From Trebouxia sp. TZW2008 (Eukaryota; Chlorophyta; Trebouxiophyceae; Trebouxiales; Trebouxiaceae): a stretch of DNA of 64,000 nucleotides. The notes under the pieces are model-generated. The model saw only the letters and a list, made by a program, of their open reading frames with translations. It had not been told where the DNA came from and ran no database searches. The DNA lies in contig BDIU01000167.1 in assembly GCA_002118135.1 (NCBI GenBank), positions 124,536-188,535 on the forward strand. Reading direction: 5' to 3'. Every line of letters starts with the position of its first letter. Within the stretch, counting starts at the first letter, position 1. Both the position numbers and the translations under genes were made by a program. Shown here piece after piece: positions 1,265 to 62,900 of this stretch.

Positions 1265-1320
1265 GCCCCGTCGACGTGCAGTATTCGTTGCATGCTAGTC
1301 TGCATGAACTTGTTCAGGTC

Positions 1321-24095: not shown

Positions 24096-26655
24096 TCATC
24101 TGCAATGCGCAGATAAGCTGTGATCAGGTTCAAGCTCAGCAAGCAGCCAGCATGTCATGCATTCCGGATGAAGTATGGCATGCTTCAAAATGTAGCGTGT
24201 ACAGTTGCAAAGTAGCAGCAGGCCCAGCGTGGTAGACATGGACAGCTGACCTGTCATGGTCCAGTCTCTGGTTGTGATTAATGGGCTCTGCCATCAGCAT
24301 GTCCTTGTCCATGAAGATGATGGTGAACACTTCTCTTGGTGCATCAGTCTGATTGCCAGACGCTTGGTGGAATGTCCAACCAGAATGAAAGCTGACTTCG
24401 CCTGCAGCACAAATCATAGCGTTGCCTGTTGTTGCCCAGTCAAATGTTCATAAAAGGGTTGCGGGAAGGTCCACCAGAATGCAAGCTGACTTTGCCTGCA
24501 GCGCAAAACGCAATGTCATTTATGATTGGTGACGATCTTGCTTGCCAGGGCTACTACTAGTCAAGCCTCTGGGTATGACTGCTGATGCCATAAGCTTCTG
24601 CTGTCTGTTCTGATTTGAATTGCACACTCAGCACGCAGAGAGCGAGCACGCAGCTGATGTAACAAAGCAGCCCTGGCATGAATGACTGATGACAATGGCA
24701 ACAAGAGTAGGCGCACAGCTGCTGCAACAGGGCAAACCTCGCGCTTAGAAAGCACGCTGACGATATCGTCGACAGTGAGCAACCGACTGATGAGACAGAT
24801 TGTCCCTAGCTGAACCAGCTGACGAATGATGTCACTGAGACAAAGCACACAGCTGATGTAAGATAACGTACCTAGCTCGAAGGGCTTGTTGACAATGTCA
24901 AAGCCGCCCTTCTTGACTTTGGCATCAATCTGCTTGTGAGCCTCTCCTCCAATGCCCAGATCCCTGTCAAGTGACATGACGTTTGCTTTGAATCACAACT
25001 GACTTGCCATGTACTGCAGCCACTTTCAGGATGATAGCTGATGCAGATGGCTGGGGTGGATAGCAACAAGCATGACACAACACAAGCTTAAAACATTGGC
25101 ATGTTAGGTTACAGCAAAGACAAGAATGTATGTGCTTTGCGATGAATCAATCAGTACTGGATATACAAAGTTATCTATTGGCATTTAAAAGATCCAGTAC
25201 CAGTGCATGAGGTGCTGATACAACTATATCATCGACACATGTGGTGACAATACCTTCCAAGATCATGTCTGTGGCTTCCTGAAGCAAACTGCAGGGGTCC
25301 CATATCCGCTGGCACAGCCTGCAAATTCACACTGCATATTGAAATCCATCTCATAAGTCTTGTTCAGGCTGTATGCAGAGGCAACACGATGTTTTGCTGC
25401 ACATATGTGCAATCAAGCCAGAGCCTGTCTGATGACAACCAACGTCTTCTCAATATAGCTAGAAAGAGGTGCAGAAAACATCTGCACCACTTGAATGCAT
25501 GCTGTAAGTATGCTTGCTTGACATGGTCTCAATTGTGCCATCACATACCTGTAGAGGGACCCAAGCTGTGAGAATCTTGTCAGTTTGCAGTGGCCAATAG
25601 TAGCCATCACAGTGCCAAGGCGTGTACCCACCGCCAGGCTCTTTGTTCAACGCCTGGTCATGGTAGATCCTTACACCATCCACCTGTGCAGTTGTTTGTG
25701 CAAGTCAGCATGGCCAGTTGCACGTCCTGTGTTTTGTCAATCTGCCATGGCTGGTCATAATAGATCCTAACACTATGCAGCTGTGCAACTTCTCATACAT
25801 GTCAGCAAGGCCTATCAAATGTTCCATATGTTGTGAACGCGCCATGGCTGGTCATGGTAAACTCTCACACCATCCACTTGTGCAGTTCCTTATGCATGTC
25901 AGCAAGGCCAGCTGAATGATGTGAAGATTGCATGGCTGATCATGATAAATCCTTGAAAGATCCAGCTGGGCAATCTTTTCTACATGTCAGCATGGCCAGT
26001 TGAAGGTTACCATGTTGTGAATGGTGCATGGCAGGTCATGGTGAGCCACTTGCGGTTGACAGGTGAAGGGCTTACCCCCATTAGCTCAGAAGCTATGCGC
26101 CCCAGCTTGCGGCCAAAGGCAAACTGTTTGACAGGCTCGCTCTGTGTCCAAAGATTCATGATCTGCACTGTGGCAAGTGTATAGGTTCCAGCTTGTGGCG
26201 ATGCATTAAGAGGCACATACAGGCATGAGTGGTACCACAAGTTGTACAAGCAATACCTGGGTGAAGGCTTTCTGGTAATCCGAGTCCTCTTCTATGGGCG
26301 TCTTGTCTGCATTTGCTACTTCCAGGGACAGTGTAGGATGGTAGTGTGCCAAAGTGGTGGCATCAAACACCTTAGGCAGCCGGACAAAACCAGTGTTTCT
26401 GTAATTCGTGACCTGGTCTGGCCGTAGCTGATAGGGAGAGTGTATGTCGACGCTTGTCTGCTCATGCTGTCTTGTTACTGTAGCGCTGCACGCCGTTGAA
26501 GGCCTGACCGCGCGAAGACGCCCGTGTCTGAAGCGGTGATAGCGCGCAAGCACTGACCTTGACGGCTGACTCAAGCTCTTTGCATCCCGAACGACATGGC
26601 TCCCGCCAAGCTTGCCACTAGTGTGGCTCAACGACGAGACTGTCATCTGCGACAT
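24096..26655 (-). CDS. Phytanoyl-CoA dioxygenase (PhyH)-like Fe(II)/2-oxoglutarate oxygenase
   Basis: Exons on the minus strand: 26655-26257, 26162-26076, 25683-25549, 25318-25254, 24963-24872, 24401-24251, then 24099-24096 (stop), about 310 residues. PhyH enzymes hydroxylate substrates with Fe(II), 2-oxoglutarate and O2. The N-terminus is Ser/Arg-rich and without acidic residues, like a plastid transit peptide. The fold begins at NYRNTGFVRLPKVFD. The iron ligands are His and Asp of WHCDGYYWP and the distal His in FHSGWTFHQASGNQT; the Arg of PREVFTIIF should bind 2-oxoglutarate. Exon 4 has the usual MGPLQFASGSHRHDLG. The first in-frame triplet after the last splice is TGA, followed by KHLPGM, where relatives carry a Trp-Leu-Pro-Gly-like end; this may be a recent nonsense change. 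Without the last splice the frame ends at 24136. Intron 2 holds degenerate copies of the start of exon 3. Confidence 0.9.
25740..26060 (-). repeat. Degenerate exon-3 edge copies in PhyH intron 2
   Basis: Three or four copies, spaced about 80-105 bases, of the acceptor plus the first codons of exon 3 (the VDGVRIYHDQ segment). The copy around 25855-25890 still reads VDGVRVYHDQP. Others have lost frame. All are upstream of the intact exon in transcript direction. Confidence 0.75.
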
Positions 26656-27600: not shown

Positions 27601-27672
27601 GGGGACAAGAGAGAATCGAACTCCCGACCTCTCGCACCCAAAGCGAGAATCATACCACTAGACCATTGTCCC
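27601..27672 (-). tRNA. tRNA-Pro (anticodon UGG), no intron
   Basis: The reverse strand folds as a cloverleaf: acceptor GGGACAA / TTGTCCC, a D arm containing the A-box-like GGTCTAGTGGTATGATT, an anticodon stem CTCGC / GCGAG closing the loop TTTGGGT with anticodon TGG, a T arm GGGAG / CTCTC around TTCGATT (B box GGGAGTTCGATTC), and discriminator C. CCA is not encoded, as expected for a nuclear tRNA. It lies alone between two protein genes. Confidence 0.95.
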
Positions 27673-28097
27673 ACAGCAGGTGATGGCGGTCTATCCATTT
27701 TTTGGCATCCAATATCTGTTGTTTTGAGATGCTGTGCTGCGCCTGCTTTGCCATTGTTCAGCTGCTTTTCGTCAGCAAGACGGGAGTTTTTGTCGCGATT
27801 GCCGCGGCAGATCTCGCCTTCACGTAACGTTCCCGTCTAGTGCAGGTGTTCGTGCGCGTTTCTTTGCAAGTCTACGGTTTGTTTGATACACACTGCGCTT
27901 TGACCCAGACGCTGACCTATTCGGCACTTGCTACCCGAACGACTGCTCGGCAACGACCTGCGGGGTCGAGCCCCATGGCGAGCTGCGCGCATGCGTAATC
28001 ACATGGCATGGTAGATCTCGGGCTCAATTTGCGTCCCTTCCAGACCTAGTGGCGTCTCTGATCCACACTGGATCTCCTGGCTCTGCAGTCAGTGTAG

Positions 28098-31000
28098 ATG
28101 GAAGACTTCGAGGACCTTGTGAGCTCCTGGATGCTTGGCTCTCTTTGCAGACCTACGACAGTTCTCACAGACCTCCATTTGTGCAGGATTTTGCTGCGCT
28201 CGACGCCTTGGAGGCCAACCATTATGCCTCCAAGCACAACAATGCTCCTGGCAATGCCTTTGATCAACAGCCAGCACTGATATATCAGTGTGATTCAACA
28301 AATATTCAGCACACCAACAGAGGCATGCAGATGTCTCACGTGCGCAGCCATGGCGTTGGAAATTCAGCCAGCGCAGCTACCTTCAGCACTAGGCCAGACC
28401 TCAGTATGCAGGAGAGCACAGCTGGTGCAGCTACAGCTCCTTGGTCCAGTGTGGCGCCTGCTGCAGCAACCAGTCTGTCACGGTCAGGAAGCAATCAGCA
28501 TTTGCGCCAGCAACAGCATCAATCCCGACCTTTGGCACAAACCTCAATGCAGGCCTTCATGGCTGCACGCTCAGGTCGAGCTGACACACAGTCAGCTTGG
28601 CCGGATCAAGCTGCACCTGCTTCTGTCCAGCAGCGAGCCCAACATACATTTGCAGCTGGGGCAAATGCAGTTGGGACTGGCTGCATTGATCTCACTGGTG
28701 ATCCACACCCTGCAGCAGCAGCCTTGTCAGTACCAGGCGACATTGCTACCACAACAGCAGTGAGTGCTCAGCAGGCACAGGCCAGCTACGTTAATCGAGA
28801 GCCAGCAGGGATTAATTTCTTTGAAGACGCAGTGGATGTTGATGATGTTGGCACAGATGGCCTCATGGAATGCAGCACCAACCTGCTGAATGCTGGAATC
28901 CGGGTGCATAAGTACAGTATTGCTTTCTGCTGCCAGTCATGCCCTGCATCATGCTGTGTGCCTGCCCTTTGAATGCACATTATGCTGCATCTGGCGCAGC
29001 ACTGAACAAGTGACGTAAGCATTTCCTGTGTGGCCTCTGATGCAGCATCAACCCCAAGATGCTGAGCTGTTGACTGTTGTTATTGCAGGAGCAACGCCAA
29101 GCACTGGGTCTACCCTGCTACAGTCCCTCAGAGGGCATATCAAATAGACATCATCAACACAGCACTCCTGCAGAACACTCTTGTCTGCCTGCCCACCGGG
29201 CTTGGCAAGACTCTCATCGCTGCTGTCATCATGCACAACTTTACCAGATGGTTCCCTGAGGTGAGCTGTGCTTGCTTGTCTTAAAACTTCTTGTGCTGTT
29301 TTTGCCATGTTGTCACTATTGTCAACCTTTCATGAGGGCTCAGATGATCAAACTACGCCTTGGTCCCACTGTTGACACCGTTTCATCACTCGTTCTGATG
29401 ACATGAGCAATGACCCAAGCTCCAGCCAGATCTTCCTCCTGCCTGCTTTATGACTGTGGTGTCACACCTCTGATCACAAATGTGCTGAGACGCGTCAGCT
29501 TACTGAATACTCTTATATCCTCTAAGAATTCACTGTGCACAACAGCTGTTGCAATGCTCCATGCAGGGCAAGGTTGTGTTTGTGGCACCAACCAAGCCTT
29601 TGGTGAATCAGCAGATTGATGCCTGCTATGAGTTCATGGGAGTGTCAAAGGTGGGCACATCAAACAATCACGTGCCATGCAGACCATCTTGCGGTTCCAC
29701 TGCCTTACCCATTGCACTCTTGCCATGCTGAATTGCATGTACACTCTCTCTACCTATTGAGGCTGTTGTTGAAGTGTACACAGACAGTGTGCCAGCACAC
29801 ATGCAATGCCTGCCATGCTGTATCGATGTTGTACTCTCTCTACACATTGAGGCTGTTGTTGAAGTGCACACAGACAATGTGCCAGCACCTGCAATGCCTG
29901 CCATGCTATATCAATGGCTTACTCTCTCTATACATTGCGGCTATTGTCGAGGTGCACACAGACAATGTGCCAGCACATGCAACGTCTGCCATGCCGCATC
30001 AAATGTGTATGTCCTCTATACATTGAGGCCATCGTTGGAGTGCGCACAAACAGTGTGCTAGCACATGCAATGTCCAATTGGTGTGCAGCTTGCGCTCTGA
30101 TGCTTTGCACATTGTCTACTGTGCAAAGATTCTGTTGCTTAGAATGCTCTCAAAGGGTCAACCAGTCTTGCAGAACTGTGTAGAGGGTGCTGCTGCAGTG
30201 TATACTGCCAATGTGCCAGCACACGCAATGCATGATTGTTGTTTGTAGCTTGAGCTAGACATCACTATACCGTTAAGCTGTGCTTGGAGTCTACGGTGCT
30301 GTGCAGTTGTTGCGCTGAACTGTTAATTCAACTGCAGACCTCCATAGAAGAGCTGACTGGCAGCTGTAAAAGGCTAGACAGGCAAGACCTATGGGAGCTG
30401 CCTTACAAGCGCATTTTCTTCTGCACCCCTCAGACATTCCGCAATGATGTTGACAGAGGTATGCTAGTCGACATGCGTTTTGCCTAAGGTCAAACATACT
30501 TCTGTCTGTGAGAGACTTTGCCTGAACAATGCAAGCTGTTACATGCATGAATCAGGTCCTTGCACAATTTGAATAGCAGCAACAGTCCTTCAATCATGCA
30601 ATTGCTGATCTGGCAAGCATTGTTATGGTATATACAATGGAGGGCAAACAACCTCACTGGATAATGCATGCACGGCGGGACAGTAGAAAATGCATATTGT
30701 GGTAATGTGCTCTCAGGCATTTGCCCACACAAGAAGGTTATATGTTTGGTTGTGGACGAGTGCCATAGGGCAAGAGGGCACAATGACGTGGTGATGGCTG
30801 TCAAGAAGATGCGAGAGGACAAGTGCAAGTTCCGGGTGCTGGGCTTGTCAGCTACTCCTGGCGGCAGCAATGAGGCAATCCAGGTAGTATGCACGCCTGT
30901 GCAGAGTAGACCAACTCTTGCGCTTTGCCGTTGCATCAGACGCAGCATGCGTAACTTGCATTTCTCTCAACCCAGATGCCGCTTGCAACAGACTGCACAC

Positions 31001-34000: not shown

Positions 34001-37000
34001 CTTCATTGGGCAGGCCTCTGGCAAGGGTGTGGGCACAGGCATGAAGCAGTCAGAGCAGAAGAAGGTGCTGTATGACTTCAGGGCTGGAGCCTTCAACACA
34101 CTGGTGGCCACCTGCATTGGTGAAGAGGGTCTGGACATCCCTCAGGCATGCTCGCTAGCCCATCATCAACACATTTCTGCTGCTGACACTAGTGTTGATT
34201 TGCTGTCAGGCAAGGCTAAGGCTTGCCTCTAATGCTTGGCATGCTCTGTTGCCATTGGTGTGCTTCAACAGATGGAACTCACTTTGCCAAGCATCTTGTC
34301 AAGATGTCTAGCGCACGATTTTATTGGGCTCGAGACAGTGCTAAGCAACAACAGGCCTTTTCTTTTGCTCCATTCTCTGCATTCAGAATGTTTGCATCAG
34401 CCCTAGTTTGCAATTCGGCTGTATAGCCTGCCCTTTGTGTCCAACCCTGCTGTGTGACGAGAAGCATGAGCAGCGACTGTGCCCATGTGTGCATGAAGCT
34501 GCCCACCGCAGCAAGGTGGCAAATGCTGTCATGTGCTGCAATTGCAGGTGGATCTGATTGTTTGCTTTGACTCTGATGCCTCGCCCATCCGCAACATCCA
34601 GCGCATGGGCCGCACAGGCCGCCACAAGGCTGGACGCGTTGTCTACATCATGTCCCAAGGCAAAGAGGAAGAAGCCTACAAGCGAGGCTTGCAGGTACAG
34701 CCATTTGGTTGGGACCGCCTTGCACTTGGCAGAAAGTCTGCAGGCCATTGTGTCAACCCTGCAGTTGACACAATTTTTGCATGCCATTATGGGGATGCCT
34801 CTGCTGTTTCTTCAAATCTTGTACTGCACAGTGATCATGCTATCACTTGAAGAAAGGGTGGCTCTTTATGTGCTGCATCATCGAGGCAGGCTAGCTCAGA
34901 AGTCTTGCTGATCAAATCCTGCTGCAACATGAAGCATGCCTTGGCCGGACAGTAACAGTGGTCATCATGTCAGTGTGAAGGCATGTCATTGAGTAACTTC
35001 AGTTGAAAATATGAGGGTTGTGACTGTTGGTATCCACCGAGAATTAGACACAGGAGGAAGTCAATCGTGTTGCTTCAGATGAGCTGAGAGATTATTGCAC
35101 AACATTGTTTTGATCTCAAATTTGTGATTCATAGAGGTGTGCAAGCATGAGTGTGCGGATCGTCCATCAGAAAATTGCATTCTCGACGGGCAGCATTGGC
35201 GTACATCACGGCGGTATGGAATTTGTCGGAAGAAAGCTGCTTGTCAAGCATCAGAGATGTATCAGGCCATGTATGTGAGTGTGTGTGAGTACTGACATGA
35301 TGTTTTGTGGCTGCAGACAAGTGCCAGCCTGCAGAACAAGCTGAGGCGTGGCAACTTCCGCATGCTGGAGCGGCCTCCCCGCATGCTGCCCCGCATGTTC
35401 ACCCCAGTGCAGCTCAACGTGGACTGCTCAGCCAAGACGCCTGTGAAGGAGCCTGAGCCCAAGAAAGGCAGGAAGGGCAAAAGCGGCAAAGCTCAGGGTA
35501 CTGCCAAGGCAACAAGACTGAGCAGTGCAGGCGGAAGAGGTGCTGCAGCAGGTAAGCAAGCTCTAGGGCAAAAGGAGAGGAATGGCATAAGTGACACGTC
35601 AAATATGGCAAGTTGTGTGAAAGGATGCAAAGCAGCTGACTGCCTTGCATGCATATGAAGTGCGCGGGTGAAGGTTCAGCAAGCCTGCTGCATGCCTAGG
35701 CCGTAACATCAAGCTACAATCTCTAAGCAAAAAGCCAAGCACTCCTGTCTTGACGTAATTGCTGAAGCAATGCATTTGGTGGCGCGTTTTGGTTGTGAAG
35801 TCTTCACTTCGTCTCCCAGTTTGAGTTCAACCTTCACCTAGCAGCAAGCAGATACCTGCAGGAGGGTGTGGCAGAGGCAGGGATAAGAAGGCCAAGGCAG
35901 CACCTGCCTCGCCTTCGGCATCTGACAGCCTTGGAGCAGACGGCATCAGCAGCCCAAACCGGCTCAAGTTTCCTTGACCTGGTTCATTTGGACCTGCACA
36001 TGGCAAAGCAATGCCCTGCTGCTCACATGCATGAGTGACAGCAGGCTGTGTGGGCAGGAGTGAAACAAGCAATGAGCCAGCACCCAACTCTTGATCAGGA
36101 TCCGACAGCCTTGATGCAGACGGCGCCAGCAGCCCAAAGGCACAGGGACCCCTATCTGGTTCACTTGGACCTGCTCATGGCAGACCCATGCCACGCTGCT
36201 CACATACATGAATGGCTGCAGGTGGCTGAGGCAGACCTTGTGGGGCCAAGAGTAAGCAAAGCTCAGAGGCAGCGCCTGTCTCTCGCTCAGTCTCTGACAG
36301 CCTGGATGCAGACGCCAACAGCAACGCAAACAGGCACGAGATTGCTTGACATGATTCAGTTCGGACCTGTACATGGCAAAGCAATGCCCTGTTGCTTACA
36401 TGCATGAGTGACTGCAGGTGGCCGCGGCAGAGGTCGTGGAGGCAGGAGTTGGAAAAGCACTGAGGCAGCACCTGTTTCCCGCTCAGGGTCAGACAGCCCC
36501 AATGAAGACGGCAACAGCAGACTGAACAAGCACAAGGATCTCTGGCAAATCAACGCCATGCTGCTCACATGCATGAGTGTCTGCAGGTGGTCGTTGCGGC
36601 AGAGGTCGTGGAGGCAGGGGTAAGAAAAGCTCAGAGGCAGCATCTGTCTCTTGATCAGGATCCGGCAGCCTTGATGTAGACGGCACCGTTAGCCCAGACA
36701 GGCACAAAAATCCCTGGCAATGCTCTGCTGCTCACATGCATTCAGGGCAGCACCTGTCTGGCGCTCAGGATCAGACATAAGAGATCGATGCCATGCTGTT
36801 CATGTACATGTCTACATGCAGGTGGTCGCGGCAGAGGCCGTGGAGGCAGGGGCAAGAAAAGTAATGAGGCAGCACCTGTTTCTCGTTCAGGCTCTGACAG
36901 CCCTGATGCAGACGGCAACAGCAGCCCAAATAGGCACAAAGAATCCTCACCTGATGAGTCTGCTCCAGAGCCAGCAACTGCAACTGCCAGTCCTGATGAC

Positions 37001-45659: not shown

Positions 45660-47472
45660 TTAGCACTTCCTGAATTCATGCAGCGCCACATGGTGAAGCT
45701 TACGCCATGGCCAAAAGTTCATAACAAATCTCTGTTCAGCCACTGTGAGCGGATTTGCAGACTTTTGTACAGACCAGGCAGCAGGATCCGCACAGGTCTG
45801 CCACAAGTGCAGCGGGTTGGCCAAGCAGCCTGTCCTGCCCGTGATTTGCTTGTACCAAACATCCATAGTTGCCTCAAGGGTGTGCAAAGCTGGCCATTGC
45901 CCTGAAAACAGTCCCTCCAGGGCGAGCTCCTTCAGGTCATTGCCTTGAATCTGCAAAGTCTCCAATTTGGGCCAATTCCCTTGGGCTAGACACTGCATGC
46001 TGAGTCTGTCCCCTGGTACACCATGCAGCAATAGGTGCCTCAAGTGAGGCCATTTTCCTGTGATGAGGATCTGCACAACCATTGGGTCGAGCTTGTTGTG
46101 TGACAGATCCAGGCTTCTTAGCTTGCCCATGCCAGCCTGCACGATGATCAGCATGGCATGATGGTCTAGGCCAAACCAGCTGGCTGCCAGTGTTAACGAA
46201 GTCAACTGGGGCAGGCGCACAGGCCAAACTTGCCTTTGGAAACTGAGTGGACAGTGTGACATGTCCAGTGACTCCAGGTTTAGCCATGAGTATGTTTGAA
46301 AGAACACAGCATAAAAGTTGAAGAAATCCAGCAGGTTTCTGTTGTCTGCTAGAGTGAGCTTTCGTAGCTTGGGCCAATGGTGACCATGCAGTGTTGGCAC
46401 TGCATCGCGGTTTAGCAGATTGCCGGTCAAGTCCAGCACGTGAAGCATTGGCAGCCCGCACTTGGACAGGCTCCTCAGACCCTCTGCTGTCATGCCAATG
46501 TGCGACAGCTGCAAAGTGTGCAAGGCAGGATATGAAGCGCTGCCAATTTGCTGCAAGGCTGATGTGTGTAGAGAACCTACAATGCTGAGGTGTTGTAGCT
46601 GCTCAAGCCCAGCTGCAACCATGCTTGACACAGCAGCGGTGTTTGTTGCTCTTCTCGACAGACTTGATATGAACTTCTGTTCACTGCTGCAGTGCTGCTG
46701 CAATGATGCTGCTAGTAATAGCTGCTTCAAGTGTAAGGTTTGGGTTCTTATGGCTTGACCTGGGGGGCAAGTCTGATGCTGAATCAACACCACTGATCCA
46801 GCTGTGATGTCAAACATGCAAAGTAATTTGAGGCGAGGCCAAGGCTCAGAGCTCAGCATTGGCGCAGCGTACTGAGTCGAGAATGTGAGGGAAGTGACAT
46901 GTTTGGAAGTCTGTACACAGTGCCCTTTGCTGACTCCGGCTAGAGCTGCTAGTGCTGTTGTAGGCAGCATGTCCAAGATGACCGGCGCTGCCTGTATCAC
47001 ATCCATCAACGCTGCAGAGTTTGCCTGTTGAACTACCCGAACTGCATTGGCTGTATCCTCAAGCTCAAAATCTGCTTCCGCACACAACGTGCGTGGTGTG
47101 GCAGGAGCCTTGCCGTCCCTGCAGGAAATCACAAGCACAGTCAGGGCCACTGCCCAAACTCAAACAGAGTAGTGTATGCAGTGGTGTACAAACACAGGGT
47201 CCAAACATCAGCAGCAGGCACGGCTGATGACTCTTTAGAGATGAGAAGACACGACTGCAAAGATGAGGGTCCTCAGGGAAGACGGTGACCGCCTGGTCTC
47301 TGTACATAGCAGTGGGAGTTCTGACAGGGAAAAGCTGCGGGCATACGTGCGCATTGCCAGTATACCTGGAGTCGCCACTTGCTGAATGTGCCACTAAGCT
47401 GCAGCTCAGCCTACGCCGCTCTGTAGCGACAGCTTCCAGCGTGGTGGAGTCCAACTGATCTCTAGCAGACAT
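45660..47472 (-). CDS. Leucine-rich-repeat protein (RNI/F-box-LRR-like)
   Basis: Two exons on the minus strand, 47472-47366 and 47118-45660, joined in phase (donor AG|gtatac, acceptor tcctgcag|G), give 521 residues. After a short Arg/Ser-rich N-terminus comes a helix (AALMDVIQAAPVILDML) followed by LPTTALAALAGVSKG, which resembles the start of an F-box, though not clearly enough to call one. From about residue 190 to 460 there are at least nine leucine-rich repeats of the type L.LSH.GMTAEGLRSL, WPKLRKLTLADN and MGKLRSLDLSHNKLDP, with the recurring WPxLRxLxL signature. Such proteins are usually substrate-binding or scaffolding modules. The gene is head-to-head with the FtsHi gene, 513 bases apart. 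The exact family is unknown. Confidence 0.82.
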
Positions 47473-47985: not shown

Positions 47986-50900
47986 ATGCAGCAGTACACG
48001 CGGCCAACACGCTTCGGCCTGTCTGGCGCACAAGCTGCAGCATTTTGTCGTCATCCCGCCCAGTCATCCACAAACCCGTACTTGTGTCGGAAGCCTGTGC
48101 TCACCAGGCGTCGTAGTGCGCCTGGACGCGTACGCATGGCAGCCAGCAATAACAGGCTTCATGCTGATCCCCCTGCATGCGCAGAAGAGCCAGAGGTATG
48201 GCTCTCAGCGGGAGCCAGTTCGTGTTGCCGGTGACTGCGACAACCACAGCTCGAATGATCGCGCTCTCACTTGTTTAGGCAAGCGTCAACGGGGTGCAAC
48301 GCCGCAGGATCAAGCTAGAGGTGGCATACCATCATCAGCATCCACCCCATCAACGTCTGACAGGTTTGTCTAAAGTGTGAGCCAATCTGTATAACACCAG
48401 GCTGGCATCTGCAGCAAGCGTGCTACTTGCAGGTGCAGCAAGTCTGCGGACCAGATCAAAATGGTGCGTATCAGCACAATCACTCTACGCCAATGCTGCT
48501 CCTGAATGCTTGAGTCAGTGGCATGTCAAGTAAGCTGAATGCCAACGCTGATAGCATGTGTCGTACAGGAAACTGCCATGTTGGCCGGAGCCATCTCTTT
48601 CATGGGACAATTAAGGGAGATCATTCCTCCTCTTTACAAGAAACTCTGGTACAGAATTGAATATATAAACACCTTTCCGATGCTGGAGGCAGATGATCAA
48701 ATCTCCTATGCCCAGTTGCTGAAATTGCTAAAGGCGAAATGGGTCAAGCGCATCAATCTGCTGGCAGACGGCAAACTTGCTATTGTTGAGGTGCGCACTA
48801 CCTCTGCATGAGATCTTGTTGGCCAGCTCACTAAGTCCCCAGGTCATCAACCCAGCTTACTAAGTCCCCAGGTCATCAACTCAGCTTATCAAGTCCCCAG
48901 GTCATCAACTCAGCTTATCAAGTCCCCAGGTCATCAATCAGGCAATCAACTAATCAATGACCTTGCTGCTGCATGACACAGTGCTGGCCAGCTTCATTGG
49001 TCCCTAGGTATTGAGCCTGTTCATTGCATGATCAACGTGGTTCAATGACTTATCTGTTGGCGGTTTTGCCTTGATTTGCAGCGCAAGATAAACAGTCATA
49101 GGGTCATCAAACTGTTTAGTTTTTGAACTGCCAGTATTGTCTAAACACCCCAGAGCTTGTTAGGGGTTGATTAATTGACACTGGCATGACATGTCCATGC
49201 ATACTGCTGCTTTGGCCAGTGACATACAGCAGACATTCAGTGCATGCCATATCGTGGCAGGACCCAAAGGCAAAACCTTAGTCCTGCTACAGCAGGGCTG
49301 AGTGCTGCTTTTTGGCAGGACTGTTCTGTACATGTGCCACTGTGTGTTGGCACAGCAATCAACAGAACCCAGTCAGCTTGTGTCTGCCGCTTGCTGCCTG
49401 AGATGCTCAGCACAAGCTAGCAAGGTGCCCCCGGGAGGTAGCTACCAGCAAACAGCAATCAGCAGATTGTAGCGCAAGCATTAATATCCCGTCATGATCT
49501 GTGCCCATCAGACAACTCCTCAGGGATGAACTCAGCTCAAAACTGCATGGCTGCTCGCAGCAGCATTATATATCTCATGCATGCAAGCCATGCATTTCTG
49601 GGCTGATTGCAGCGGCAATTCATCACTCATGCATGCAAGCCATGTATTTCTGAGCTGATTACAGCAGCAATATATCACTCATGCATGCAAGCCATGCATT
49701 TTTGAGCTGATTGCAGCGGCAACTCATCACTCATGCGTGCAAGCCATGCATTTCTGACCTCATTGCAGCAGCACCTTACCACTCATGTCCAACAACATCC
49801 GCTTGCGTCTCATTACAAAGTCATGCACAGGGAAGGATTGATTGCTGCCGTGCACAATCCGAGTTTAAGGTGTCAGCAGCAAGTGATCTGCCTGTTTGTG
49901 GGCGGGGTTTTTATGTCATCTGTTATTAGTTAAGTCAGCTACTTTAGTTAATCCGACAAGTTATGTTTCTGTTGTACTTCTGTTTCTTTTTGTGTGATAT
50001 GTCTCTCATGTATCCATTACATTTCTTTCATATTGCTGATCTGCTTCTTCTTGCAGGTCCCATTTGAAGAAGAAGATGATTGGATGGAGGAGAATGCAGA
50101 AGCACACGCTTACTTAAAGGATTATGAGAGACTGTATTTTGACCGATTTGACAGATACGATGAGTACGTGTGCCAGCTGCAGCGCTGCATAAAATGTGAT
50201 TGTCACATGTGCCTTGTCTGTGTGTCATGCTCATGCACAGAAATGTTGAGTAGACGAGTTACCAGTGGGCGATGCATGAGCCTTCCATCCCTTGCATCTC
50301 ATCATAATCATTATGTACATGCTTGCCAGTGACCCTTTGCAATGAACACAGAAGCAGAATACCTCCTGTATATCACATGAAACTTGTGTGTGGCCTCACA
50401 TGACACAGTACGAGCCATGCAGGGTCACTTATTCTGTGGAAGAGCCTGAGTGGATGATGGAGCGTAATTATTTTTATGTGGAGCTGCCAGGTATTGTCAT
50501 CGGTTTCAAGTTTGCATTGGGAATCATGGGCACTTGAGGGCTGCATGACTCATGTCACAGCTTGCATGTCGTTCTTTGATAGGGGAACCCTTATAGGCAG
50601 GCCAACTTGACATCTCTCCCTTTTCTATGTTTGCAGTCTTTCAAACTCACTTCTCTGTTGAGTTTGGACCATTTTTCCGCTGCGCCCAAGCCCGTGAGCA
50701 AAGGCAGCTGTTGTTGTACTGCAAGTGTGAACTGTCCTTGCTCGCAGTCAACATCAATGCCTGCACTCCTCTTCACAGCTTGCGCCATCTCTGCAAAGTT
50801 GCATCAAAGCAGCATGAATGCTGTGGGTGCTTCTGGAGCAAAGACATTTCCATCTGTTCCTTTGATTTTGTTCTGTGTTGAACCGAGCCAAGCAGAGTCA

Positions 50901-53900
50901 GTCTAATGTAGCATCTCTGCAATTGCCTGAATGCAGCGCGAATGCTGCTGGATCTTGATGTTAGGCATGTCCATAATTTCCTATGCTGCTGTTACCTTGT
51001 GCTGGTTGGGGACAGAAGATTACTCTTGTGTGTATCTAGTTAGGCCCCCTCAGCCTGTCTAGCATCGCTTTGCATGGAAACGTAACATGACTTGGTGTGC
51101 TCAGGGTGCCGTTGGCAGCGATTGTGTATGCATATTTGTTATATCTGTGGCAAGAGAACGTCTATACACATTCATGATTGCCATGGAGCAATGCACACGG
51201 AGAGGATTGCGGCAACCCACTACAAGATTGACGGCATCTAGGGCTGCTGCTTTCGCTGAAGCTGCAGCGTCTGTGCTGTATATCCAGGAGATCTTTGGGA
51301 GCAGGGGGAACTGATGCGCCTGATCAAGGCGAGCTGGCCACAGCGCACTGCTGACGGCCGAGTTCCGTACCTTAACCAGCTACAACATGACCAGTTTTGC
51401 ATAGAGCTGGCGATTCATGACTGGAAGTCCCCGTAAGCTGCTGCTGCCCATCCACTCTACGCAACTAGCAAGCATCAATTGGAATTTCTGCATCAGTGCA
51501 AGTGTCTACGCCATCTGCTGCGTATATGTCAACTCGCGGACTCAGTCCTTCCCTCACGCACTGAAGCACTCCCTTCCTCCCTGCTCCCCTCACCCACCCA
51601 CTCATTCACTCCCTCACTCACTCCCTCGCTCGGTTGCTCGCTTGCAAGCAGCGTTGTAAGCTGCTGTGGGGCTGTGTATCAGCAGTCATCACATTGCCAG
51701 TGTCAGAAGCCGACAACCCATAACCTTTGCATTGTGCCCAGGTGCTGCGTGTTTGGCTTGTTTCTGTGTCTACCATACCCACACCTGTTTCATGAAACTT
51801 CACACTGAAGAGGGTTGCATTGCCAAGCAGAACTAGGGCAAGCAATTGCAGGTGCCTAATCAGCCACAAATCTGATCTGCTTCAGCCCAGCAATTGCTGA
51901 CATGCATAGGCACACAAATGCATCGCTAGATCACAGAAGGACTATGTAGTCTGGATGAATTGCGGCGTCAAAGTATTGGCAAGCCTTAATCATGATGTAC
52001 TTTGCAAAGTCTCTCGCTGTGGGTACAATGTGCGCACAGCAGGTGCATCTGGTGAATTCACATCTTTGAGATGCTAGTCGATGATGAGTCTTGCCCATAG
52101 GAGGCTTAGATGGCTTGGTCACACGGCACGTATGCCACAGGACAGACTGCCTTATCAGTGTATGTTTGGGCATTTATCAGGCACTCAGGCCAAGGGTAAA
52201 CCCAGAGAGACTTGGCAGTCAACTGTGTACAAGGACCTCTCTGCCCTCCATGTCCAATATAAATGGTTTAGGTTAGCACATGATCGAACTGGTTGGAGAC
52301 AATTGGTTGCTTCTGTAGGTACCTAGATGGGCCTGCTCAGCCTGCCTAGCCCAGGTTTACAATGAATGAATGAATGAATGAATGAGTGAATGAGTGAGTG
52401 AGTGAGTGAGTGAGTGAGTGAGTGAGTGAGTGAGTGAGTGAGTGAGTGAGTGAGTGAGAATGAATGAATGAATGAATGAATGAATGAAGCGTGCTTGCAG
52501 GCTACCCTTACTGAAGATTCTGAAGCCCCTTGTCCTGCCCAGTCTGGTGCTCTTGGCTTTTCAAGTGGTGTTGTGGGTTTTGATCTGGATTGCCAAGAAG
52601 GCTGGGTACCTCACGGAAAGGAAGGATGACAGGAAGGCGATGATGGAAGAGTATGGGAAGCATAAGGCGACAGCGTTTAATGTAGGCAAAGGGAAGTCAC
52701 GTAAGGACACTGGCGTGCGCTACAGCGATGTGGCAGGCCTTGACACGATCAAGCGTGACATTGAGGAGACAATGCAGATGGTCATGCGCGATTTGAAGTA
52801 TAGCAAGATGGGCGCTCAACCCCCCAGAGTGAGCAACCCCCCCCCCTCTCCCCCCCGTCCCATAATGGCACTTGTCTGCTCTCCTGACTGCTTGCATCAG
52901 CGCGAGCATGCAACTCATGTGGTTGAAAATAGACGCACAGATTGTTTGTACTGTCCAGCGTCAGAGGCAAAAGCTTCCTGTACAGGTCTGATGTTGCGTA
53001 GTCGTTGACCCTGTCGATTGCAGCTTTCAACCCTCAACGCTTCTCAAAAGGGGAATGAAGACTTCTTTCATGTAGCCAAGCTGCAAATGACACTCTTGGA
53101 CAGTTCTCCAGTTCACAAATCAACATGTGCTTGGCCATATCAGCTTGCCTTGCTGCCAGCAACTGCAAGTAGGTGATCAGAGGAAGCTCAGCTCACAAAC
53201 TCTGTCATAGGACCAAATATGTGTTCAACGCCTGATACGTCTCTATCTTATCCATCACGGCTGGTTGCTGCCCTGTTGTTTAGGGCAGTCCATTAGAAGG
53301 CTTGCCACAGGCACAGGCAGGACCTGTCACGAGGCGGGTTTGCCCTTCTACAGTGCCAACAGAGCGGACTTTGCAAAAATGCTTCAAAGCTTGGCAGCTC
53401 CCCTTGTGAAATCTTATACTGCCAAAGTCAGATAGAACAAGTAACAAACCCCTGCTGTTCAGGGCATCTTGCTGGAGGGGCCCCCAGGGACAGGCAAAAG
53501 CTACATGGCTTGGGCTATGGCAGGCGAGGCGGGCTTGCCCATCTACAGTGCCGACGGATCTGATTTTGTGGAGATGTCTGCGGGCGCGACCTGTTTGCCA
53601 CACCTCTGCTGAATCAGGCTCTGCTGTTCAGGGCATATTGCTGGTGGGCCCCCTGGGGCCAGGCAACATGTACATAGCTTGGGCTATGGCAGGCGCGGCA
53701 GGCTTGCCCTTCTACAGTACCAACGATTCTGAGGTTGTGGAGATGTTTGAGGGCATGACCTGTCTGCCACACCTCTGCTGAATCAGGCTCTGCTGTTCAG
53801 GGCATATTGCTGGAGGGCCCCCTGGGGCCAGGCAAAACCTACATAGCTCAGGCTGTGGCAGGCGAGGCGGGCTTGCCCTTCTACAGTGCCAATGGAGCTG

Positions 53901-56900
53901 AGTTTGTGTAGTTATTGCGGGCGTGACCTGTTTGCCACACCTCTGCTGAATCAGGCTCTGCTGTTCAGGGCATATTGCTGGAGGGGCCCCCAGGGACAGG
54001 CAAGACCTACATGGCTCGGGCTATGGCAGGCGAGGCGGGCTTGCCCTTCTACAGTGCCAACGGATCTGAGTTTGTAGAGATGTTTGCGGGGGTGGCCGCT
54101 TCCCGCATCAAGGATCTGTTTGCTGCAGCCCGCAAGACCTCCCCCTCCATCATCTTCATAGGTCAGTCTGCATCAATTGCTGCCACATCATGCTCATGGG
54201 GAGTGTCAATTCAATTCTCTGCCAGGAAGAATCTGCGTAGGGTACATACAGCAGAGTCGGACAGGTCAGGTCGCAAGACTTTCCCCTCCATCATCTCCAT
54301 AGGTCAGTCTTCTCCACAAGAAAAGCCATGCCATATTTGCGATTTGATCAACTGCTTCTACTCTCAGAGGCTGCCGCTGCAGGCGTAGACTTTTCGTTTC
54401 TCACCTTTCTCATTGATGACTTTGCAAGACACCCTCCCCCAATCATCTTCAGAGGTCAATTTGCAGCAGCCATGACATCTTGTTCTCACCGAGAATTTGC
54501 AGGAACATTCTCTTGCACACATGAAGTCACACAGTGATTTGCTTGGCTGCAGATGAGAATGACACCATAGGCATGGCCAGGGTCAGAGGCAACGACAGCG
54601 GCAGTGCTGAGAGAGAGTCAGGCCTACTGCAGCTGCTCTCTGAGATGCATACAGTAGCGATTTAAAGTGCTGCAGCAGTGCATGCAAGACACGCAGCCAC
54701 TTAATTTGAAGTGCTTGGCTGCAGATAAGATTGACACAATAGGTACGGCGAGGGGCAAAGCCAATGACAGCAGCGCATCTGAGATTGATGTAAGAAGCAA
54801 ACTGCTGTAGCATTGGGCTGCTTGCAAAGGACACAACCCCTTGACATGACAGTACGAGATGCTTGGCTGCAGATGAAATAGACACAATAGGCATGGCTCG
54901 GGGGAGAGGCGACAACAGTGGCAGTGCTGAGAGGGAGTCAGGTCTACTGCAGCTGCTGACCGAGCTGGACGGCTTCACCAGGGACGACAGGGTGCTGGTC
55001 ATTGGAGCGACCAACCGTGTTACTTCACTGGATGATGCACTGGTGCGGGCGGGCCGCTTTGACCGCAAGCTCTACATGGGCACCCCCACTACCCCCAACA
55101 GGCTCAAGATCCTGCAGGTCAGCTTGCCATGCCATGCCATGCCATGCAATCATTCCCTCGACCCCTCAGTTCTCATGAGACAGCGCTGACGGTCTCCTAC
55201 TCTGAAGCAGTGAACACTCCATTGTATTCATGAGGCTCCAGGCTGCTGCAACAGGTGTCGCATTTTGCATGGTGCTGCATGCTGCTATTCTGTTCATCAA
55301 GATCAGACATCATGCAAAATTTGGCTGTAATGCTGCAGCCTGAAGTCTCAGGCATGCACCTGGCCCATAAGCCCCCAGACCACGGCCAGGCTGTCAAATT
55401 GCGCATCATGTTGCTCTGGACAAATGCATAAATTGCGCTGCTTTTGGCCCAGGCGCATGCAAGGTGCAAATGCATAAACCACGACAGTGTAGACAATTGG
55501 TGCATTTCTCCTGATCATGCCAATCATGAATGACCGCTGTTTGTGTGGCAGGTGCACGCAAGGAGCAAGTTCCTGAATTACAGTAACACATGCACAGTTT
55601 TGCAGTGTCTAACCCTGCTGACTCTGAGACAGTACTGCTGATGTAGCAGCATATCGTATTCTGTTGACGCTGCATCAGTACTGCTTGTGTGGCAGATTCC
55701 TCAAAGGCGAAGGTCAATAGACCATGAATACGTTGCCAGACCTACATCAAGCTTTGCATCATGGGTAATCATGGCAATTTTGAACTAACCCTGATTGTTT
55801 GGCAGGTGCATGCAAGGGGTAAGCCCATAGAACGTGGTAATGATGGCGTGATGCTGAGGCGTGTGGCACATCAGCATGTTGATTGCTCAGGTGCCATGTA
55901 CAATATGTCTGATCCTGCCCGACCCTGACTATGTCATGCGTCTAATCCTGCTGAGTCTGAATAAGTAATGCTTATGTGGCAGGTGCATGCAAGAGGCAAG
56001 CCCATAGACCGCAGTAATGATGATGCAGTGCTGCGCTGTGCGGCCTAGCAGACTGTTGGCCGCCTAGGCGCCATGTGCATTGCGTCTGATTCTGCTGAGT
56101 CTGAATCAGTAATGCTCATGTGGCAGGTGCATGCAAGAGGCAAGCCCATAGACCGCAGCAATGATGATGCGGTGCTGCGGCGTGCGGCACAGAACACTGT
56201 TGGCTACTCAGGTGCTGCGTTGGCCAACCTACTGAACGAGTCAGCCATCCTCATGGTAGGCCTGCCAATTATGTCCATTCATTCTTGATTGCCTTGAATT
56301 CGGCAAATCTCAATCAGGTTGTGTCATGCGCTATCAGACTTTTCGGCGGGGGAAAGCATGTAGTCTCTCTCTGTTAGCTGCCATTCCTGCGTTATGTCTT
56401 GCTGGGTAAAGTTTTGGTGACCTTGCAAAACTGCTCAACAAATCAGCCATCCTCGTGGGAAGGCCTGCCAACTATATCTGTTGCCACTGCAAGATGAGCT
56501 TGCTCAACAAAGCAGCCATTCTGATGGTAGGACTTCCAAGCAGTGAGTCATCATATGTGATACTCGATACGCCATACATCATACGCAATACGCAGTATTA
56601 AAAAAAGATTATCACAGAGACGCAGTGCCAATTGTGAAATGACAACACGTTGAGATCGACTCGTCATATCCAATATGCAAGTATTGTCGAGTATCAGTCA
56701 CTGAGGCAAAGAGTATGTGTTGCACTGGTTCCAAGTATCCCTGTTGCCATTCACACAAGATGTCTTGCTAAGTCAACAATTGCTGAGCTGTCCAACCCAT
56801 GAAGCAGCCATCTCAATGGTAAGCCTGTCAGTCATGTCTGTTTCTTCTTGATTGTCTTTCATGCAAGGTGTCTTGCAGACTTTAGAGTCGCAGTAAGAAG

Positions 56901-59900
56901 CGCTTTTGGTTTCTCACAGGTGCGGGAGAGTAAGGAACAGATCGACCATCCATTAGTACAACAGGCTCAGGCTCTGGCTCTGGACTGGCTAGAGCTTGGT
57001 CTGCTCTCCAACTCTCTGCCAAACGTACAACAAGCAGTAACAAGCCCTTTTGGTGTCTCACGCAGGTGCGGGGGAGTAAGGAGCAGATTGACTATCCATT
57101 GATCCTGGACCGACTGGAGCTTGGTCTGCCCTTTAGACTGCTGCCAAACAGCCCAGCCAAGACACCAGATCACATTTGTACCATTTCATGTCCTTTTGCG
57201 TTTGCTTCCTCATAGGAGTAGAGACCAGATCACCTGTGTCATCCCTCACTTGCTCTTGCTTACACAGAGGTCCAGGAGAGTAAGGAGCAGATTGACTATC
57301 CGTTAGTCCAACAACCAGTAGAGCTTGATCTGCCCTCCAAGCTCCTATCAAACATCTGACAAGCCCTTTTGCTTTCTCACAGGTGCGCAACAGCAAGGAA
57401 CATATTGACTACCCATAAATTTAACAGGCTCTCAACCGGCTTGAGCTTGGTCTGCCTTCCAAGCCGCTGCTGAACAGGCCAGCCAAGACGCCAGATCACT
57501 CTTATGATCTCCTCTTGCTTTTGTGTTCTTATACAAGTTGAAACCAGATCACCTTTGACATGACACAGTTGCTCCTGCTGTCTCACAGGTGCGCGATAGC
57601 AAGGAGCAGATCGACTATCCATTGATTCAACAAGCCCTGGACCGGCTCGAGCTTGGTCTGCCCTCCAAGCCGCTGCCAAACAGCCCTGCCAAGAGGCGTT
57701 TAGCAACAACATTGATGGCTAAGGCTGTCATGATTTCTCTGACTGCTGGCATGTCCGCTGTGGAGGGCGTGACCATGTCCACCAGGGGGGGTCATCTGGG
57801 GCGCATCAGATTTGCACCTAAGGTGAGCTGCTCAGAAGCAATTCCAGCAATGTGATTAGTAACGCTGATGGTTGTCGCCATGCTGACATTGATGGCTAAG
57901 GCTGTCGTTGCTGCCCTTGCCGCTGGCATGTTCCCTGTGGAGGGGGTGACCATGTCCACCAGGGGGGGTCACCTGGGGCGCATCAGATTTGCACCCAAGC
58001 TCAGCTGCTCAGAAGCAACTCCAACAATGTGATTAGTAAGGATGTTGTATGTTGCCATGCTGACATTAATGGCTAGGGCTAAGGCTGTCGTTACTGCCCT
58101 GGCTGCTGGCATGTCCCCTGTGGAGGGGTTGCTCATTACCACCAGGGGGAGGCCCATCTGGGGCGCATCAGGTTTGCACTTAAGGTCAGCTGCTCAGAAG
58201 CAATTCCGACAATGTGATTAGTAAGGATTATGTTTGTTGCCATGCCAGCATAATTGCAAGGTGTTTGTGACACAACTCCTGATTTGTGTCTTACTTATAT
58301 CAAGTGATAAACATTTCAGTACACTGTCGAGCACATGTGCTAGGTGTGTGTGCACAATCCCTGACTCATGACTTATGTAAGGTGCGGCAAGGTAAAGCTG
58401 TTGCTCAAAGTTCTCATCATGAAACAGGTGAAACATGGAAATCTAGGTGTGTCTGCTGGCAGCGTGTCATCATCATGATACAACATTGTATCAGAACAAT
58501 GTATCAGCAGGGGTACCTGATTGCCACATTGTTTTTGGAATCAGGATGCAACTGAGGTGCAACCAGGCAGGCATCATCTTATTGAGCAGGAACGCATCAC
58601 AAACATCATCAATAGTGTGTCATTCACATTATGAGTTGACACAGAGACACCTGATACTGAAAGTGACAGTGACATTGACAGTGATGGTGATAGCGACAGT
58701 TGAGAACTGATTGCACTTTTAGTGTTGCATTTTGAGCACAAGCCGGTGACTGAACTTATATGCCTGTTGCAGAAGATGTGTCCATAGCGGACGCACCTGA
58801 TTGCATCACCTCCACATGTAGCATCCTGAGCTTGATCAGTGCCATTGTGCCATGCAGGACAGGGCTCAAGCTGGGGCACCTGGCAGCAATCCAAGTACAG
58901 GCAGGCAGGAGGCGGTTTGCTGAGCTTGAATGATGACGGCAAAGTCTTGGAGATACAGGATGGAGTGTAAAATTGATGTTTGATGCAGGACTTGACGCAA
59001 TCAGGGGCCAGGTGACGGCAGTTGAGGTACAGGCAGGCAGATGGCAGTCTGCGTGGGCAGAAGCAGTTTGATAAGCTATGTAGGGTACATGCTTAGCTTG
59101 AAGGCACCACATACATGATGGTGTGTGGTACAGGACTCAATGTCAATCCGGGGGGAGTCGGCAGCAGCTGAGGTGCAGGCAAGCAGGAGGCAATCTGCGT
59201 GGGCAGCTGCAGAACCAGTTTGACAAGCTGTGTGGGGTAACCCTGGCTTGAACGCATCACAAACATGATGGTGTGTTGCATAGGACAAGGGCTCAAGGAG
59301 CGACAATTATCTGCAACTGAAGTGCAGGCAGGCAGGCGGCAGTCTGTATCGGCAACCGCATGACCAGTTTGATGAGCTGTGTACGGCGCGCTTTAGTTGA
59401 GTGCAGCAAAATTATGATGGTTTGTTGTACAGGAAAAGGGCTCAAAAAGCGGCAGCTCTTCGCAGCGGAGGTTCAGGAAGGCAGGTGGCGGTAGGCCTGG
59501 GGAGCCGCAGAACGAGTTTGATGACCTGTGTGGGGTGTTGGTGCCCCTGTATGCCTCAAGAGCCACAGAAGAGGTCCTATATGGTCGCCAAGCCATCACC
59601 ATCGGCACCTCAACAACAGTGAGCTTCCTTGCATGGAACGCATTACGCTGCCTATTACTGTCTGCAAGGCATTGACAGTGGTGTCATTGAGCCTCTTTAC
59701 AAGTGTGCTGGTGCCTATGTATGCTTCAAGAGCTGCTGAAGAATTCATGTACGGTCGCTAAGGCACCCTCATTACCCCGGATGGGTACAGGATTTCAGGA
59801 GAAGCGGGTTTACAATCAAATCAGAGAAGTGTAGTTACAATGAGATTAGGGAGCGGCTGTACAATGAAATTACAGAAGCAGATTTACGATGAGGTTAGAG

Positions 59901-62900
59901 AAGCGTGTTACAATGAGAGCAGAAAAGCTTGTAGCCCAAAGGGGTAGTATCCAGACACCAGCCCCTCAGCAATAGTGAGACCCCTTCATTGCATAGGACA
60001 CGTCACTCTCGGGTTGCCTTTTTAGACAGAGGCTCCCATCATGACGCCTAACGGCATAGACGTTTCTTTTCTTACACATCACAATGCCCACCAATCCCTG
60101 CTTGCTCCTTTTGTGCACTGAAAGCCTGCTATGGAGCCTCCTCCCTCAAGTATGCTGGCACCCTTGTGTGCTGAGCCACTCCTATCTTGCATGGGACAGA
60201 TTGGGCAGATCATGATGCACACAACTCTACTTGCCCTTTTCCCTGCATGCCTTGTTCGCCTTCCTGCTACTTGCAGCATCTGGCAATGAAAGTGGTGTTG
60301 TTGAACACCTCTGCATGCATGTGATTCTGCCATTTGGAGGTGCAACTTTCATCCAGAGTCTCAAGCAACATCTGATTATGCAGATGGGACAAGCTCGCAA
60401 CCTAGCAACTTATCTGGTGTCCACTTCCCCAATGTACACATCTGGTTCTGCCAAACTTTTCAAACGTCTAGGCCCGGTCATGTATCCAAGCGCTGTGTTT
60501 GACAATGTGAAAGTGTTGCATAGACAATGTGTGCTTGTGCAGGTGGCACAAGCCGGCAATCTAGCAACTCATTTGGTGTCCAATTCTCTGATGCACCCAG
60601 CCTCCAGTCAACATGAGGTTTGGGAACACTGAAGACAACCCCACAGACAGCTGCCTATGAGCAGGCCCAGCGCCTCATCAGTCTCATTGTCAATGATCCA
60701 GTTGCTGCTCTTCTGCTGAGTCTTAGACAATGTGTGCTTGTGCAGGTGGCACAAGCCGGCAACCTAGCAACTCATTTGGTGTCCAATTCTCTGATGCACC
60801 TAGCCTTCAGCGACACTCCAGTCAAACAAAACATGATGTTTGGGAACACTGAAGACAACCCCACCCCAGACAGCTGCCTATGAGCAGGCCAAGCGCCTTC
60901 TCAGTGTGATTGACAACAATTCAGTTGCTGCTCTCCTGCTGAGTCTCAGACAATGTGTGATTGTGCAGGTGGCACAAGCCGGCAACCTAGCAACTTATTT
61001 GGTATCCAATTCTCTGATGCACCCAGCCTTCAGCGACACTCCAGTCAAACAAAACATGACGTTTGGGAACACTGGAGACGACCCCACCACAGCATACACC
61101 ATTGCCTACCGCACCGAGGCCCTGGTAGTGCGGCTCCAGACAGCTGCCTATGAGCAGGCTAAGCGCCAAATCAGGCTCACAAAGGACGTGATTGAGCAGC
61201 TGACTACTGAGTTGTTGGAGAGCCCAGGCGAGGAACTCGAAGGGGATCGCATTGTGGAAGTGATCAATGCCAACATCACTGATTATGATGAGCGGTGGGT
61301 GTTGGAGCAGCCGCAGGAGGAGGATGATACAGAGCAGGTGAGATTCTTGCCATGCTTGTTGCAACAGCATGCATGCAGTTTCTCACAAGTTCAGGCGGGA
61401 CTTCCGCCACCATTGCCTTGACAGCAGGCAGGTTGACCTTTTACAAGTCTGAATGGTCAACTGTTGGGGTGCCCAGATTGCATGCAACCATGCAGAGCGG
61501 CGTACTGCTGCAATATGTGCTGTAGATGAAGCGCGACTGACATCTTGGTATGTATATCTCCCTCACCTGCTGTGCTGATGCCATCTTAAATTGTCCTTGC
61601 ATATGACTTTGGACACGGTCATTCATTTTGTTCTTTGTATCTACCTAGTAACAGTGTTGATCCCATGAGACATCATCAGAACCTGTGTTCATCTTGAATA
61701 GCATGAAATGATCGTTGTGCCTTTGTTACACAGGGGTCAGCAGTGAGCTTTGATGACTCATTCACCATGGGCAAGGTGGGCTCAGTCTCTATGCGGCAGC
61801 AAGAGCAGCGAGATCCCATGAAGGAGTTGAGGCTGGACAGCGACGACATACAGCAAGCAGCTGAGGTTGTGCTGGGCAGACTGGACATCAGGGAACTCAT
61901 TGGTGGCACTAGTAAAGACAAAGCAGCCAAGGTAAGCTATCCAGTGATTTCCCTGACAAAAGCTTTCAATGTAAGGAGTTTCTCAATGCAAGGACAGCAA
62001 AGATATACAGCAAGCAGCTGAGGTTGTGCTGGGCAGACTGGACATCAGGAAACTCATTGGGGGCATGAGTGAAGACAAAGCAGCTCAGGTAAACTGTACA
62101 GTGCTTTCTCTCACAAAAGCACTCTCACAAAAGCACTCGAACAAGGAGATTTTCAGTGTAAGGACAGCAACGACATACAGCAAGCAGCTGAGGTTTTGCT
62201 GGGCAGACTGGTCATCAGGGAACTCATTGGTGGCACTAGTAAAGACAAAGCAGCTCAGGTAAGCTAACCAGTGATCTCTCTTACAAAATTATTCAGCACA
62301 AGGAGACTCTCAAAGTAATGACAGCAAAGACACACAGCAAGCACCTGAGGCCGTGCTGGGCAGACTGGACATCAGAGAACTCATTGGTAGCGCTAGTACA
62401 GACAAAGCAGATCAGGTAAGCTAATCAGTAATTTCCCCTTTAAAAGCAACTAATATATGGAAACTCTCAGTGTAAAGACAGCAGAGACATGCAGCAAGCA
62501 GCTGAGGCAAGCTGTACATCGATTTCCCCTGAGATGGACGCCCAATGTGATTTTGCTTGATGAAAGGACCAGGCAGTTGCAAATCAATTGCTTCATTCTG
62601 ACTGCAACGTACAGAGACCTCGTTGGTGGCAAGGCTACCAGGGACAAAGCAGCTGAGGTAAGCTATTCAGTAAGCTCTCTTGCAAAAGCACTCAATACAT
62701 GGAGATTTGCAATGTAAGGACAGCAAAGACATACAGCAAGCAGCTGAGGTGGTGCTGGGCACTTTGGACATCAGGGAGCTCATTAGGGGCACTGGCAGGG
62801 ACAAAGCAGCTCAGGTAAGCTGAACCAAGTTCTGCATTATCAAGCACTACTGACTCATTTGCACCAGTCTCTCCCTACAGTCTCGACACATGAAAAGTCC

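Follow-up and report, generated by a model that had tools for sequence, protein, structure and literature searches.

The window analysed here is a stretch of 64,000 nucleotides of contig BDIU01000167.1 from Trebouxia sp. TZW2008 (Chlorophyta), and it contains a large gene whose introns carry repeated copies of the edges of its own exons. By joining translated exons by hand, we identified one plus-strand gene that starts near 48.5 kb of the window and reaches 62 kb or beyond. The joined exons are colinear with Chlamydomonas Fhl1 (PDB 8xqw_A and 8xks_D; E = 6e-102), the AAA domain included, and on this homology the product is predicted to be an FtsH-like protein related to Fhl1. Seven consecutive exons, here termed G to M, each have an open frame. 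Exons G (53969-54161, within the AAA domain), H (54873-55117), I (56127-56255), J (57589-57822), K (59433-59618) and L (60969-61337) were placed by homology to Fhl1 and by phase, so that their identification does not depend on the repeats. A known protein matches part of exon L at 89% identity. Exon M (61734-61931) was placed by colinearity and phase, as its own match to Fhl1 is not significant (i-Evalue 7.9).

Eleven of the 14 edges of these seven exons are copied in the flanking introns, all on the plus strand. Upstream copies precede the acceptors of the exons starting at 53969, 54873, 56127, 57589, 59433 and 60969, and downstream copies follow the exons ending at 54161, 56255, 57822, 59618 and 61931. 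Self-alignment revealed three upstream copies of the 5' part of exon G with its acceptor (53452-53968, period about 169 bp), together with an extra 55-bp piece at 53330-53384. Exon-intron alignment identified two downstream copies of its 3' end with the donor (54272-54468, as 54272-54310 and 54424-54468), two upstream copies of the 5' part of exon H with the acceptor (54540-54755), and three such copies for exon L (60338-60869). The upstream copies of exon I (55450-56060) carry an acceptor AG at 55451, 55550, 55694, 55804 and 55981, and those of exon J (56912-57491) at 56918, 57064, 57268 and 57381. Each of these two exons is also followed by two copies of its 3' part (56425-56858 and 57886-58245, respectively), one of which has lost the donor GT in either case. 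Copies of the 5' part of exon K (58895-59382; self-BLAST and exon-intron alignment) recur with a period of about 145-149 bp, and five downstream copies of the 3' part of exon M with its donor (61992-62821, exon-intron alignment) have a period of about 157 bp. In the exon M array, about 50 bp (62556-62606) match three other contigs at 84-91%, perhaps as a small dispersed repeat. Arrays make up 47% of the 8.5 kb of intron in this gene, counted over eight intron intervals with the end of the last assumed. As a control, we searched the wrong side of exons G to M and found four short matches of 26-56 bp; these involve exonic bases that precede a donor but do not extend as far as the donor itself.

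The analysis covered 304 kb (0.44%) of the 68.5-Mb, 527-contig genome, consisting of the window and 24 further stretches of 10 kb (L009-L032). Seventeen of the 24 loci come from contigs that gave AAA hits, and an AAA exon falls wholly or partly within 14; the other seven (L009, L010 and L028-L032) were picked irrespective of genes. Self-BLAST of the 24 loci returned 173 matches, all direct and at most 1500 bp apart, with no inverted match and none at a greater distance. No pair was found in a third-order Markov version of the same loci or in 50 kb of E. coli. The exon-edge copies in introns described in an earlier note on this DNA, which was made from the letters alone, are real. Grouping of pairs at most 1500 bp apart yielded 98 arrays in the 304 kb. 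Array cover is 11.2% in the 24 loci, 22 of which contain at least one pair, and averages 12.7% in the seven loci picked irrespective of genes. When two arrays were searched across the whole genome, we detected elsewhere just short or weak matches, unlike an introner or a mobile element.

Outside the Fhl1-like gene, exons were called from sequence by a hidden Markov model (HMM) gene finder trained on the same 304 kb and seeded with hand-fixed splice sites. Of 22 hand-fixed edges it recovers 18; some copies are mistaken for exons, and intergenic DNA is under-called. Removal of 38 copy-like exons left a functional set of 432. An array is held by 83 of 392 introns, and 34 of the 392 consist of arrays for at least half of their length, so the earlier suggestion that most introns of large genes are such arrays is not borne out in this sample. 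Array-bearing introns are longer (median 594 versus 339 bp). Arrayed edges are strongly clustered by locus (chi-square 90, 24 degrees of freedom), the extremes being 0 of 35 and 9 of 21. Loci L018, L022 and L028 are rich in arrays (9/21, 11/33 and 8/26 edges), whereas L013, L017, L024, L027 and L032 have none at 25-35 edges each.

The copies follow a rule of sidedness. Of 118 junction-spanning hits, which are not independent events, 112 (95%) lie on the expected side: acceptor copies upstream of the intact exon (65/68) and donor copies downstream (47/50). The six exceptions show that the "always" of the earlier note was too strong. It had also reported two-sided copying at the exons starting at 56127, 57589 and 59433. 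We confirmed this for the first two, and exon G is likewise copied on both sides; at 59433 (exon K), the copy of the 3' part (59705-59765, exon-intron alignment) lacks the donor, ending 23 bp short of it. The sidedness arises from geometry: when a duplication spans an acceptor, the exon remains attached to the downstream copy alone, and at a donor to the upstream copy alone. It is therefore no sign that junctions are targeted.

The spare copies look dead. Divergence between copy and exon is 0.145, 0.127 and 0.227 at the three codon positions (110 pairs), as expected if the exon is constrained and the copy is neutral, and 28 of the 34 indels in 73 copies shift the frame. An in-frame stop is absent from 58 of the 73 copies versus 50.9 expected (P = 0.04). 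At the inner boundaries of copies, GT is present in 25 of 77, with a background of 0.42. Codon positions, frameshifts and inner-boundary donors thus offer no support for the copies as translated or alternative exons. The exon-edge copies lack coding constraint, and the view of them as dead products of local duplication is supported.

Unit length has a sharp upper limit. The smallest offset per array lies between 55 and 196 bp in 93 of the 98 arrays, and thus below 200 bp; 15 arrays fall at 177-197 bp and none at 198-218 bp. A looser search, with 112 arrays, gave the same edge. As longer units are easier to detect, the ceiling is not a limit of the search. Arrays comprising both exon and intron have longer periods than exon-free arrays (median 154 versus 100 bp, P = 0.002).

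Part of the edges have a tandem structure that includes intron. Among 63 edges with copies, 25 have homology that reaches 40 bp or more into the intron and nine more have 20-39 bp, and at these edges (25 to 34 of 63) tandem duplication across an existing junction is visible. Nineteen others lose homology 0-19 bp past the junction, and ten within the exon itself. The claim that the pattern is exactly what tandem duplication produces is therefore not fully supported. Homology between spacer and flank over 44 spaced pairs (z = 14, with 16/44 in tandem register) was rejected as proof of tandem origin, since it is mostly due to further array copies. After removal of stretches with other array copies, 17 clean pairs were kept and 27 dropped; spacer-flank homology then has z = 3.7 and is individually significant in three of the 17. 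Clear residual flank homology is retained by the clean pairs in L011 and L030, and a third is marginal.

We consider that small local duplications, near-random with respect to splice sites and then filtered by selection, account for these arrays, with a probability of about 0.6. Such duplications would strike without strong regard to splice sites. Within exons they would survive if a multiple of three in length; across a junction, the copy joined to the exon would keep working while the outward copy turned into intron and decayed; and in noncoding DNA they would persist freely. The period is divisible by three in 11 of 12 wholly exonic arrays versus 27 of 86 others, which speaks for such a filter, but the calling of exons by open frame favours such periods and the result is supporting only. 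The exon-derived half, constrained in one member of each pair, stays recognizable longest, so that junctions appear targeted. The source that we prefer, although it is unproven, is repair of breaks with staggered ends, in which nicks in opposite strands, separated by as much as about 200 bp, would leave overhangs that are filled in before the ends are joined. Some arrays would later have grown in register, and some dead edges may later have been converted by the living exon.

Several observations weigh against this interpretation. Arrays touch an exon edge in 65 of 98 cases versus 51.6 under random placement (1.3-fold, P = 0.003), and exon-free arrays are about half as common as random placement predicts (15 versus 30.4). 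Detection bias cannot be proved to explain the whole of this excess and deficit. A simulation of tandem duplication with neutral decay, parameterized by the exon identity of each pair, was rejected in 14 of the 17 clean pairs, whose spacers are far less flank-like than predicted. An earlier, cruder simulation called for flank homology that is missing from 20 of the 26 youngest copies (exon identity 0.86 or more). Gaps of at most 12 bp occur in 32 of 71 mixed arrays versus 13 of 15 exon-free arrays, spaced pairs thus being common at exons and rare where exons are lacking. Finally, breakpoint homology, by which repair pathways could be distinguished, is not legible in copies of this age. The clean-pair test and the decay simulation lowered our confidence in a simple tandem origin. 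Exon identities in short local alignments are biased upward, which weakens the rejection, although it should still hold for pairs in which 50-107 bases are exonic.

Instead of break repair, the duplications could stem from replication slippage or from unequal exchange whose reach is set by the length of an Okazaki fragment or a nucleosome. Length-limited slippage is nearly as good a source as staggered-break repair, and we regard this alternative as plausible, at somewhat worse than even odds. In its favour are the limit on unit length near 200 bp and the presence of in-register arrays (61835-62821 among them); under staggered-break repair, such arrays need a later step of expansion. It is less readily reconciled with the many pairs that are out of register, and repeats at the breakpoints are not demonstrable.

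It is also possible, although less likely than not, that edge copies are made or renewed from the living exon, either by gene conversion of old dead edges or by templated insertion at breaks in introns. The rejection of simple tandem decay in most clean pairs points in this direction, as do young copies at L012 7755-7867, L031 9486-9598 and L010 7761-7811 that match the exon and its splice motif but not the flank. Intron is nevertheless part of the unit at 34 of the 63 edges, the L011 and L030 pairs keep flank homology, and identities that are biased upward inflate the flank homology expected. For the non-simple edges, the exon half of old tandem copies may have been converted by the living exon, or pieces of exon may have been inserted by templating. 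Such young edge copies, 86-94% alike and with unmatched flank, lie within L010 7540-7811, L031 9486-9754 and L012 1978-2246. A more speculative and rather unlikely extension is that introns grow by local copying in units strictly limited to about 200 bp (one nucleosome or Okazaki length), while living exons re-copy their edges, as far as the splice site, onto dead neighbours and so renew decoy edges, some of them with working acceptors.

The earlier note had proposed that the placement of duplicated segments at splice junctions be compared with chance. Duplication aimed at junctions, for example through R-loop- or splicing-linked breaks during transcription, is quite unlikely on the resulting counts. 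Acceptors are hit more often than under random placement (53 of 421 versus 41.2, P = 0.02), and donors less often (32 of 420 versus 41.6; P = 0.03 for so few). Omitting the window gave similar values, with 51 of 76 arrays touching an edge (40.6 expected), acceptors at 40 of 344 (32.1), donors at 27 of 344 (31.5) and 13 exon-free arrays (23.1). Targeting would agree with the edge excess, with the acceptors and with the 19 of 63 edges where homology stops within 20 bp past the junction. However, array coverage has no peak at junctions, arrays occur both without exons and wholly within them, and the longer detectability of exon-bearing pairs means that the mild junction excess does not establish targeting. 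Placement is near-random; targeting is not established, and weak targeting is compatible with the mild excess. A first placement test (47 observed versus 47.9 under the null) was superseded, as its exon set had lost real exons such as 57589-57822.

We consider it very unlikely that the copies are retained as decoy or recursive splice sites. The acceptor AG is kept in all 19 copies of the Fhl1-like gene (53461-60744) versus 13.6 expected from the dinucleotides at codon positions 1 and 2 of the same copies (P = 0.001), and pooling with the other loci gives 56 of 65 versus 47.4 (P = 0.007). The AGs at 53461, 55804, 57381 and 60541 are examples of candidate decoy acceptors in this gene. Elsewhere, however, AG is kept in 37 of 46 versus 33.8 expected (P = 0.17), and the donor GT in 31 of 42 versus 29.8. 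With no significance outside one gene, AG retention was rejected as proof of selection.

An assembly artefact is hardly conceivable, because false duplications would be near identical, whereas these copies differ by 6-35% with frameshifts and pairs are present in 22 of the 24 sampled loci; the one feature in its favour, that no pair of at least 45 bp exceeds 94.1% identity, may mean that near-identical copies were collapsed in assembly or, alternatively, that duplication activity has ended.

Small tandem duplications that arise where breaks leave protruding ends were reportedly described by Vaughn and Bennetzen (2014) and Schiml (2016). In two further papers, such duplications are derived from breaks whose protruding ends are filled in and joined (PMC5730883, PMC8355091), an origin that fits a short process blind to sequence; they resemble the arrays studied here in being short, direct, adjacent and limited in size, although the introduction of PMC8355091 mentions insertions under 100 bp and units here reach 196 bp. 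That introns can originate by tandem duplication is accepted (PMC3443670). The Rogers model of intron gain set out there likewise has short tandem duplications within genes shaping introns, but an exonic AGGT is duplicated to give a new intron, whereas here the junctions pre-existed where the unit includes intron, and no intron gain was shown in the sampled 304 kb. In a potato RNA-dependent RNA polymerase gene, a tandem duplication across an intron-exon boundary, carrying the acceptor along, made a new intron (PMC4974935). That single recent event produced a spliced new intron and a new exon; here there are dozens of old events with unconstrained copies. Introners also shape the intron content of a genome, but as dispersed copies (PMC9860276), in contrast to the single-place arrays found here. 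The polyubiquitin UBC repeats, with dual-specific splice sites, are similarly tandem arrays with AG/GT sites within a gene, but their units are translated (PMC10809524), unlike the unconstrained copies here.

Our literature search, mostly outside subscription journals, found no report of a genome as rich in junction-spanning duplications. The lengthening of introns and the origin of small duplications are usually studied on a few recent events, and here they are accessible in bulk, amounting to about 11% of the DNA in the sampled loci. A constrained exon next to every junction copy acts as a clock. Sharp constraints on the molecular source come from the limit at 200 bp and from copies ending at the splice site.

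Elsewhere in the window, the HMM gene finder predicted a minus-strand gene at 24.2-26.6 kb and a plus-strand gene at 26.7-45 kb, with the Fhl1-like gene following after about 48 kb. These models make it plausible that the copies occur in three unrelated genes, as the earlier note had it, but the array near 25.7 kb (25638-26042, minus strand) is weak: its four copies, at a period of about 97 bp next to an exon predicted on the minus strand, are 65-72% alike. On the plus strand, self-BLAST detected an array with a period of about 180 bp (35895-36942) before and into the predicted exon 36822-38360. Classification against predicted exons placed another (40399-40653, plus strand, period 72 bp, a multiple of three) wholly within an exon. 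Arrays without a predicted exon lie at 29721-30074 (period about 90 bp, self-BLAST) and 49550-49787 (period 104 (52) bp, repeat search). Short-period repeats at 43002-43102, 48823-48937 and 52363-52487, with units of 42, 29 and 4-12 bp, respectively, and 92-96% matches, are nearly uniform, unlike the long-unit arrays. We also identified a SPC12 signal peptidase subunit (1243-1575, plus strand), a PHD finger (44521-45003, plus strand), leucine-rich repeats (45663-47159, minus strand) and a tRNA gene (27601-27672, minus strand). Separate open frames at 18453-20458 (minus strand), one of which contains a reverse transcriptase domain (PF00078 at 19301-19717), are probably the remnant of a retroelement.

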